Assembly: GCF_001434835.1 (NCBI RefSeq)
Contig: NZ_AZDV01000005.1
Location: 248,001 to 312,000 of the forward strand
DNA from: Levilactobacillus acidifarinae DSM 19394 = JCM 15949
Lineage (GTDB): Bacteria; Bacillota; Bacilli; Lactobacillales; Lactobacillaceae
Direction of reading: 5' to 3'
Length of the DNA: 64,000 nt
Every line of letters begins with the position of its first letter. The first letter of the stretch is position 1. The notes under the pieces were generated by a model that saw only the letters and a list, made by a program, of their open reading frames with translations, was not told the DNA's origin and searched no databases. The translations under genes were made by a program, and so were the position numbers. Below are positions 5,978 to 54,250 of the stretch, in pieces.

Positions 5978-6664
5978 TTAATGGGAATAGATGGCCTTGA
6001 GACTGGTGAGATCCGCTTGCGACAGCTGGGTGCGCCCCTCACTGTACGGGTACATCACGGATTGGTGCGACTTACTGTGGTCCAACCCCAGGGCGTGACC
6101 GAGTTCGTGGATGGCCACCGTATCCGTGTAGGCCTTATCGTAATCGCCGTTGAGGCTGGCGGTGGCGTGGTTCCAGGTAGCCGATGCACCTAGCGTACTG
6201 GTCTCCTCGATAATTTCCGGGCCCCCGTGGCCGAGTTCGACCAGCCGCTGATTCTTCGGCATCTTTTTGTAGTAGACCGAAAAGGTGATCTGGTTATCCC
6301 GTTTAGCGGCCGACCCCTCAACGAGATGCACGATACCGGTATGGTTGTAGGTGTCGACGGCGTCGTTGAAGACGCGCATCCCGGCGGCCGGTAGCTTGGA
6401 ACTAAAATGATAATAGTAGGTTTTGCTCAGGCTGGTGCCTTGCACGACGCTTTCGATGGGCGTGCTCCCCTTAGGTGTGGTGGTGTGGGATTTCGGGGCC
6501 GCGGCCGGCACGTCAGTCTGAGTCCCCAGCGTTTGACTAACCGCCGTTTGCAACGCCGTGACCCGTTTGGTGAGGGCGGGGAACTGGCCACTCCGATAGG
6601 CCACCCCAATCCCCAATAGAATTAACAGGATGACGACCAAAGTCACCCGACGTCCGTGATACAT
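5978..6664 (-). CDS. Membrane-anchored matrixin-type zinc metalloprotease
   Basis: 228 residues. One N-terminal hydrophobic segment (about 8-25) without a clear cleavage site, then a Thr/Pro/Lys-rich linker, then a catalytic domain. The zinc site HELGHALGLDH is at residues 186-196 (His186, His190, His196 ligands, Glu187 catalytic), followed by SVMYPY, the Met-turn expected for metzincins. This is the matrixin/peptidase M10-like family, so a cell-surface protease facing outward is expected. It is preceded by a strong GGGGAAGGGG ribosome site and transcribed divergently from the permease at 6890. Possible targets are surface or extracellular proteins (inference). Confidence 0.85.
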   Translation of the reverse strand: MYHGRRVTLVVILLILLGIGVAYRSGQFPALTKRVTALQTAVSQTLGTQTDVPAAAPKSHTTTPKGSTPIESVVQGTSLSKTYYYHFSSKLPAAGMRVFNDAVDTYNHTGIVHLVEGSAAKRDNQITFSVYYKKMPKNQRLVELGHGGPEIIEETSTLGASATWNHATASLNGDYDKAYTDTVAIHELGHALGLDHSKSHQSVMYPYSEGRTQLSQADLTSLKAIYSH

Positions 6665-8391: not shown

Positions 8392-8510
8392 TTGAAATCA
8401 GCTTTGAACTTTAATCATTGATTGAACAGGGAATATTGAATTAGCCATGATGGTTAACGTCAGCTGGAAGGTCCGTCAGAAATGGGCTCAGGGGCGAAAT
8501 TTGCTAAAAC

Positions 8511-8645
8511 AAAAAAGTCCTCCGCGTAAACGGAGGACTCAGTGGTGAGGTGCGGCGACCTTCGGAACGCTTGCGCGCCGATCGCGTACCCCCACCGTGG
8601 TTTGGCACCAGGAGCTAGTATCGCACGGTGGCCCCGGGAAGTCAA
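8511..8645 (-). ncRNA. Candidate ~100-nt structured small RNA with own promoter and terminator
   Basis: On the minus strand a promoter TTGACT (8645-8640), 17-nt spacer, GATACT (8622-8617) predicts a start near 8610. The transcript would end at an intrinsic terminator (GTCCTCCG/CGGAGGAC stem, 8538-8517, then six U). Between them a nested fold can be drawn: GUGGGG with CCUCAC, inside it GCGAUC with GGUCGC, inside that a hairpin CGC-GCAA-GCG capped by a GNRA tetraloop. No gene lies downstream on that strand before 8311 (convergent), so it is not a leader. It is not SRP RNA (no GGAAGGxAGCA apical loop). I do not recognise the family. This RNA fills most of the 422-nt gap between the permease and the TVP38 gene. 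Confidence 0.5.
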
Positions 8646-29999: not shown

Positions 30000-30020
30000 G
30001 ACACTAACAACTTAATAGAT

Positions 30021-30262
30021 TTCTTCGGGGCAGGGTGCAATTCCCGACCGACGGTGACAACGCTTTGTGGCGTTGAAGTCCGTGACCCGCGTTTAGCGGT
30101 GGACCCAGTGTGAGTCTGGGACCGACAGTATAGTCTGGATGGGAGAAGAAAAAAATCGATTTTCGACCTGATGGGGGCAGTCTCGCGATTGCCGCCACCT
30201 CGGATGAAGTCTTATTTAGCTTTTAATCATGGCCCCGCAAATTATTTTGCGGGGCCTTTTTT
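30021..30262 (+). promoter_or_regulatory. FMN riboswitch (RFN element) with transcription terminator
   Basis: The aptamer runs about 30021-30150: TTCTTCGGGGCAGGGTG at the 5' side, the CCCGACCGACGGTGAC core, and GACAGTATAGTCTGGATGGG before the closing GAGAAGA. The expression platform is the terminator GGCCCCGCAA/TTGCGGGGCC (30231-30256) plus six U, ending 15 nt before ribD. FMN binding should stop transcription of the rib operon. Confidence 0.95.
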
Positions 30263-53921: not shown

Positions 53922-54250
53922 AAAAACCGCCCTTAACAGCCAATGCGTTAAGGACGGTTAAATTAACCGCGGTACCACCTTAATTGGACGCGTGACGCAA
54001 AACTAGTCACCGCGCCCCCCTCACAGGAGACCAACATCTCCCTGACAACTGACGTATGTCACACGTCTTTCCGTACTTGAATTCTTTCGGGAAAGCCCTC
54101 GGTGGTCCATTTACTTACCTGCGTTCGGCCGTACTCTCAGCAACGACGGCTCTCTTGACGGGCATAATAAGCTTGATCTCCACTTCAATGGTTTGTTTCG
54201 GATGATTCTTGAATTGAGACTAGTGTACGTCCGGGCATTGGGGATGTCAA
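53922..54250 (-). promoter_or_regulatory. T-box leader of oppA
   Basis: Promoter TTGACA (54250-54245), 17 nt, TACACT (54227-54222). The canonical T-box AAGGTGGTACCGCG is at 53981-53968; the terminator AACCGTCCTTAAC/GTTAAGGGCGGTT plus U run is at 53959-53922. Stem I lies about 54200-54050, with an AGAGAGCCG bulge-type segment. I could not place the specifier codon with confidence; AUG or UGG can be read. Confidence 0.88.

Follow-up and report, generated by a model that had tools for sequence, protein, structure and literature searches.

The window analysed here, a stretch of 64,000 nucleotides from the genome of Levilactobacillus acidifarinae, carries on its minus strand a predicted small RNA gene of about 100 nt (approximately 8610 to 8511), recognized from a reading of the sequence and from its fold. 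We regard it as near certain that this gene and its RNA family are real, and as far as the literature can be searched the family is described neither there nor in Rfam 15. The one invariant block of the RNA is an 11-nt stretch in its 5' hairpin that is exactly complementary to 23S rRNA. On sequence grounds, and with somewhat less than even confidence, we propose that the RNA acts in trans by pairing with 23S rRNA, probably while the 50S particle is still unfinished, and would serve there as a placeholder or brake.

Gene layout and fold of the small RNA

The RNA is preceded by a sigma-70 promoter, TTGACT and GATACT separated by 17 nt with a TG upstream of the -10 box (8645..8617), and is predicted to start about 6 nt after the -10 box; it ends in an intrinsic terminator (Table 1). 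Both elements had been proposed in a preliminary description of this DNA and both are present, the promoter being kept in relatives and the terminators of other Levilactobacillus species having the same form in different letters. That description had also placed no gene downstream on the same strand, and indeed the next gene, for an amino acid permease (Pfam PF13520; 6890..8311, plus strand), is convergent, so that only its end is met downstream. Since no gene follows the RNA, its earlier characterization as trans-acting fits, and 23S rRNA offers a candidate target, although action in trans is something we infer. Upstream of the RNA, and divergent from it, is a gene for a VTT-domain protein. 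Elsewhere in the window, positions 5978-6664 (minus strand) encode a small protein that has a metalloprotease domain of the matrixin type (PF00413), which strikes us as unusual in a lactobacillus.

Table 1. Features of the predicted small RNA gene, with positions in the window
Feature	Position	Strand	Remarks
-35 box TTGACT	8640..8645	-	TTGAC kept in the same-genus loci aligned
-10 box GATACT with upstream TGC	8617..8622	-	TGCGATACT kept in the same-genus loci aligned
Predicted small RNA	8511..8610	-	5' end at about 8610 and 3' end within the T run; core 8544-8610, which corresponds to the one R1/R2 match per matching genome
5' hairpin H1 (UGGU-GCCAA-ACCA)	8598..8610	-	outer pair 1-13 varies between species
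Invariant 11-mer GGUGCCAAACC (nt 2-12)	8599..8609	-	exact complement of 23S rRNA GGUUUGGCACC, helix 89 3' strand
Long interrupted hairpin	8544..8596	-	H2, 8596-8590 with 8550-8544; H3, 8585-8580 with 8560-8555
Apical motif	8561..8579	-	GG.UU wobble pairs, Y-R pair, GCAA tetraloop, 5-nt bulge CCGAA (consensus YNGAA)
Intrinsic terminator hairpin and T run	8511..8540	-	stem 8540-8515, 11 pairs, then TTTT

When positions 8612..8509 were folded, the structure was better than that of 200 of 200 shuffled sequences (z -3.54), and a fold that included the promoter was weaker (z -2.19, with 7 of 200 shuffles as good). From its 5' end the RNA has a short hairpin, then a long hairpin with interruptions and a GCAA loop, and finally the terminator. 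The 'three nested helices' with a GCAA loop reported earlier were therefore nearly right: three helices are stacked there, but they make up a single interrupted hairpin that stands beside the 5' hairpin and the terminator. At L037, L038, L121 and tRNA-linked loci such as L080 there is no separate terminator hairpin; the second hairpin runs directly into a T run, which gives an RNA of about 70 nt.

This structure is supported by compensatory changes. In alignment A1, with 19 distinct cores, both partners change in 10 of 21 pairs; none of 500 shuffles reached as high a value on any measure. Alignment A2 comprises 100 matches, or 79 distinct sequences, that were aligned to the covariance model, so that it leans towards the model; here both partners change in 14 of 21 pairs and in 306 cells, and 96.7% of cells pair. 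None of 500 shuffles was as high for cells and score, and 29 of 500 were as high for the number of pairs. Within A2, 12 of the 13 pairs of H2 and H3 change on both sides, the apical G.U pairs are each present in 78 of 79 sequences, and the Y-R pair is CG in 49 and UA in 30. These pair counts rest on A1 and A2, two further alignments (A3 and A4) having been left out as misaligned in H2. A conserved secondary structure with compensatory changes is what one expects of an independent small RNA gene. The covariance search suggested at the outset found compensatory changes and assigned no Rfam family.

The Rfam result is based on a cmscan search of all 4227 families of Rfam 15, in which the window RNA had no match at any family's gathering score. 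Loci of relatives scanned in the same way (sets of 20, 4 and 11) likewise gave no gathering-score match to the small RNA, and the adjoining tRNA was found in the tRNA-type loci. A suhB match over the RNA scored 12.9 bits against a gathering score of 41 and was rejected, and the best weak match in the region, an animal microRNA model over the permease terminator, was also far below its gathering score. SRP RNA (4.5S, RF00169) was considered and discarded: the genome's single SRP match sits on another contig, in agreement with the earlier statement that the window RNA is not SRP RNA. Two known regulatory RNAs occur elsewhere in the window, an FMN riboswitch at 30017-30154 on the plus strand (RF00050, 114.2 bits) and a T-box leader at 53947-54197 on the minus strand (RF00230, 100.1 bits).

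We found no description of the RNA in the literature text searched, which included passages of PMC5593968, PMC3166299, PMC13109727 and PMC9436029. In the available passages on Grad-seq in E. faecalis (PMC10117718 among them), no named RNA can be equated with it. The accessible text of PMC7724050 describes E. faecalis sRNA_112 / E. faecium sRNA_005 as a conserved RNA of unknown function; this could be the same RNA as the family studied here, its position being absent from that text. A covarying RNA of food and gut lactic acid bacteria and enterococci that is absent from Rfam 15 deserves a name.

The invariant 11-mer and 23S rRNA helix 89

Nucleotides 2-12 of the RNA are identical in all 79 distinct sequences of A2. 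Later searches with text patterns demand these 11 letters and are hence no evidence of their invariance. The pair that closes the same hairpin, 1-13, is free to vary: among 126 distinct cores it is G-C in 46, U-A in 29, U-G in 6, C-G in 5 and A-U in 3 (paired in 89 of 126), and it is unpaired in 37. Because the inner 11 nt are fixed while the outer pair changes, the fold alone does not explain the fixed letters.

The complement of the block, GGUUUGGCACC, is the 3' strand of helix 89, approximately E. coli 2489-2499, ending just before the peptidyl transferase loop; to our knowledge, this 23S site is universal. We searched for GGUUUGGCACC in 20 genomes and found more sites than for the control in three genomes of other families (G092, 7 to 0; G094, 6 to 0; G095, 6 to 1), and no excess in the genome of the window itself (5 sites against 9 for the control). 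The matches checked in four genomes (G000, G091, G094 and G096) are 23S rRNA, with RF02541 at 3 of the 4 loci and the same surroundings, ...GACGGGGAGGUUUGGCACCUCGAUGUCGGCUC, in all four. All 11 nucleotides are thus complementary to the 23S rRNA of four genomes, an exact and conserved complementarity of the kind expected of an rRNA-targeting antisense RNA. According to the accessible text of PMC4690841, a DNA oligonucleotide that holds GGTGCCAAACC, with the same 11 letters, was used to isolate the 23S stretch around C2499.

How often such complementarity arises by chance depends on what is shuffled. Only 111 of 200,000 permutations of the 11-mer are complementary to the genome's own 23S rRNA, and 43 of 2000 shuffled cores have an 11-nt 23S match somewhere. 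An 11-nt match somewhere in the core is hence not rare, and the argument draws its force from the fact that the matching stretch is the only block of the RNA that never varies. The RNA also has other matches of 8-10 nt to rRNA, and the best RNAduplex hybrid of the whole core with 23S rRNA is long, imperfect and not at helix 89. The apical motif was considered as a second 23S match and rejected: the 10-nt run of the window RNA is not in the conserved form, and the degenerate sense motif TTYNGAA occurs 3 times in the genome's own 23S rRNA against about 1 to 2 expected by rough arithmetic. A pseudoknot joining the loop GCCAA to the GG of the second hairpin was looked at by eye and is not proposed here.

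The 11-bp duplex is predicted at -19.6 kcal/mol, compared with -2.9 kcal/mol for H1. A 54-nt stretch of helix 89 folds on itself at -17.8 kcal/mol, and pairing with the mature helix is therefore not favoured. The text available from PMC11260487 describes helix 89 as a late-folding part of the 50S subunit, one of the final pieces of the peptidyl transferase centre to take shape, with the help of several assembly factors. The site is paired in the mature subunit, but an RNA on the 3' strand of helix 89 during this late folding would be a placeholder or brake at that step. Under the proposed mechanism, the loop GCCAA would first meet UUGGC in 23S rRNA that has not yet folded into helix 89, and this contact would then zip up into the 11-bp duplex on the 3' strand. 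The duplex would hold back or steer the late folding of helix 89 until it is displaced, and the second hairpin of the RNA would give stability or bind a protein. The conserved second hairpin speaks against this proposal insofar as the 23S match does not account for it.

A regulator of mRNAs, for which the 23S match would be a coincidence, is the alternative that survives best, and we consider it unlikely. The loop GCCAA, with its flanks UGCCAAA, would here be a seed for mRNA leaders; the gene layout and the exposure of the loop are as in many small RNAs, and a seed of 5-7 nt needs no match to the full 11-mer. However, 11 nt including both sides of the stem are fixed throughout A2, beyond what a loop seed would need, and the full-length complements in the genome of the window are, apart from 23S rRNA and the RNA gene itself, only three sites, all inside reading frames.

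We know of no protein partner of the small RNA. That it nevertheless works by binding protein, as a decoy or scaffold in principle like 6S or CsrB, with H1 and the GG.UU plus YNGAA bulge as two recognition sites and the 23S match again a coincidence, seems rather improbable to us. The near-invariant G.U pairs and the bulge of the second hairpin do look like a recognition motif, and RIP-seq in E. faecalis predicts, in the accessible passages of PMC10117718, that KhpB binds certain tRNAs and small RNAs. Against this stand the rarity of 23S complementarity among permutations of the 11-mer, which makes coincidence unlikely, and the recurrence of H1 without the second motif.

Distribution and genomic settings

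Searching 148 relatives at the DNA level returned 37 matched genomes, namely 33 of the 35 Levilactobacillus genomes (the one studied here included) and 4 of other genera. The two Levilactobacillus genomes without a DNA match were G003, which is 99% complete, and G006, which is 72% complete; G003 had no match by covariance model R1 either. R1 found the RNA in 125 of 397 Lactobacillaceae genomes (10 of 40 genera), in 37 of 295 genomes over the order (16 of 74 genera) and in 2 of 299 over the class, both inside the order. A second model, R2, built from 100 matches, found 43 of 151 Lactobacillaceae genomes at E 0.01 or better (12 of 40 genera), the weakest of these family matches, G160, having the 5' element only. 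Combined, the two family searches cover 14 of the 40 genera, or 15 with G160, and every matching genome listed in the R1, R2 and DNA searches had one match.

A scan of named genomes yielded at least 120 stretches, with a pattern that 4 of 101 loci do not fit. Among the 80 stretches listed, those from Lactobacillaceae belong to Levilactobacillus, Lactiplantibacillus, Lacticaseibacillus, Lentilactobacillus, Secundilactobacillus, Companilactobacillus, Liquorilactobacillus, Lapidilactobacillus and Ligilactobacillus, and the others to Enterococcus, Carnobacterium, Listeria fleischmannii, metagenome-assembled Streptococcaceae and a few further bins. Over the class, the text pattern GGGTGCCAAACCCAYG occurred in 4 of 299 genomes, and R2 at E 0.05 matched 10 of 299, of which 3 are in the order and 7 are weak. 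By eye, six of the weak matches (L138-L143) look like chance and were discarded; the seventh, L144 in G696, is the H1 element only, after a tRNA-Val. The class-wide R2 search thus found no full copy of the RNA beyond the groups named above. The preliminary description, which had assigned the RNA to this genus, was too narrow, given its presence in many Lactobacillaceae genera, Enterococcus, Carnobacterium and Listeria fleischmannii. Its suggestion of a housekeeping RNA is not established, as G003 and many other genera have no match, and the dispensability that this implies also counts against the 23S reading.

The RNA occurs in two settings. Of 196 loci, two (L128 and L315) fell outside the search expression, and merging of identical stretches left 165 distinct loci, which were classified by ad hoc text rules, the tRNA rule also accepting the 3' part of a tRNA alone. 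By these rules, 50 loci follow the 3' part of tRNA-Lys(CUU) and lack a -10 box, 111 have a -10 box and no tRNA, and 4 have neither. In 111 of the 115 non-tRNA loci a -10 hexamer lies 4-8 nt before the RNA, compared with 16 to 28 of 115 when the same rule is applied at four shifted positions. Most Lactobacillaceae loci seen are of this kind, with no tRNA and a -10 box 4-8 nt upstream. Promoter and intrinsic terminator are both kept in relatives, as expected of an independent small RNA gene.

Outside Lactobacillaceae, the loci seen (those of Enterococcus, Carnobacterium and Listeria fleischmannii among them) usually have the RNA directly 3' of tRNA-Lys(CUU), as its trailer. ARAGORN detected a whole tRNA-Lys(ctt) at 20 of 21 such loci, with a gap of 0-2 nt, the one miss (L079) being cut by a contig end, and at 23 of 25 further loci, the other two (L156 and L178) keeping the tRNA 3' part only. 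The same setting is found in Listeria fleischmannii L220, the Streptococcaceae bins L152 and L207, L137 and L206; within Lactobacillaceae a single species, Ligilactobacillus pabuli (L195), shows it. The tRNA-Lys before the RNA is reduced to its 3' part at L306-L308, which are viral contigs, and at L156, L178 and L167, the last of these being an E. caccae locus, one of the four with neither feature, where just the final tRNA bases remain; ARAGORN found no tRNA at L306, L167, L156 and L178. These truncated loci look as if elements inserted in the tRNA had severed the RNA from it, a possible route to promoter-driven copies. If the RNA starts at the usual distance from its promoter, or is cut off where the tRNA ends, both settings would place the 5' end at the foot of H1. 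At the Carnobacterium-type locus L080 the tRNA and RNA unit follows dnaB and purA, and at Lapidilactobacillus L189 a promoter-driven copy lies beside purA and dnaB; these common neighbours suggest descent at one site. The neighbouring genes are different elsewhere. The switch between tRNA trailer and own promoter is a clear record of a small RNA gene gaining independence. Outside Lactobacillaceae, origin from the tRNA-Lys transcript would tie the dose of the RNA to stable-RNA synthesis.

The RNA might also be a maturation signal, a 3' trailer hairpin that aids tRNA-Lys processing or termination and persists as a relic in Lactobacillaceae. We consider this very improbable: direct adjacency to tRNA-Lys at 50 of 165 loci, as close as 0-2 nt in the ARAGORN-checked set, would fit it, yet the 111 loci with a promoter and no tRNA retain the same 11 nt and fold, and these promoter-driven copies largely refute it. 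A tRNA search of the 64-kb window found none, so the window RNA is not in the position of a tRNA 3' trailer, and the small RNA is missing after the genome's two tRNA-Lys(CTT) genes, both of which have ordinary terminators.

In a comparison of 177 loci, the genes flanking the RNA differed between species, yet promoter, core and terminator stayed together. Conservation, covariation, an own promoter and terminator, shifting neighbours and the lack of a gathering-score match in Rfam all bear out the earlier view of an independent small RNA. The idea that there is no RNA gene, just a promoter and a terminator that happen by chance to flank GC-rich inverted repeats, could draw on a consensus scan of the region that found 2 promoter-like sites where 2.0 are expected by chance and 5 terminator-like sites where 3.4 are expected, which is not above chance, but it is refuted by the covariation, and the gene is lifted above chance by a promoter, core and terminator form that are conserved in other species at other genomic sites.

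The 5' element also occurs apart from the rest of the RNA. In two genomes of another family (f11, g99; L325 and L326), GGGTGCCAAACCCACG follows tRNA-Val(GAC) and is succeeded by a different hairpin and a terminator. In G160 (L347) and G046 (L346), GGTGCCAAACC stands where transcription from a promoter is expected to start, and unlike hairpins and a terminator come after it. Three of these loci fold far better than shuffles (L347, z -8.05; L346, z -6.20; L325, z -5.70); the z of -0.89 for L228 comes from a truncated stretch and does not count here. An H1-only search (BGGTGCCAAACC) of 33 chosen genomes found 29 sites against 21 for the reversed control; L325 and L326 among them were already known, L343 is an ordinary tRNA-Lys copy, and most of the others look coding by eye. 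L346 and L347 are likely RNA genes, and three other lineages seem to carry the 5' element on unlike 3' modules. The 11-nt element may therefore be portable, an argument that is weak in numbers.

Put together, the 23S reading would make this a naturally occurring antisense RNA, present in single copy and directed at the peptidyl transferase centre. In it H1 would pair with helix 89 in maturing or idle 50S subunits and form a portable element, found at the 5' end of several otherwise unrelated RNAs and delivered by a promoter or by cutting at a tRNA end. Bacteria would then control the final stage of building the large subunit by means of an RNA. We consider this fuller version possible but doubtful.

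Relation to known systems

Like independent bacterial small RNAs, the window RNA has its own promoter, a compact fold, an intrinsic terminator and no downstream gene on its strand; it differs from them in its wide spread and in an 11-nt block that is invariant in 79 sequences, with no Rfam family. It resembles tRNA 3'-trailer RNAs (tRF-1-like) in lying directly after tRNA-Lys(CUU) in Enterococcus, Carnobacterium and Listeria fleischmannii, whereas most Lactobacillaceae copies seen, that of the window included, lack a tRNA and are driven by a promoter of their own. Among laboratory reagents there are antisense oligonucleotides directed at the peptidyl transferase region. The window RNA has the same complementary sequence and would be a natural counterpart of them (compare the accessible text of PMC4690841). 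With ribosome-associated noncoding RNAs, such as the Haloferax RNA described in the available part of PMC6104027, it shares the proposal that a small RNA acts on the ribosome; the difference is that the contact proposed here is an exact antisense match to 23S helix 89.
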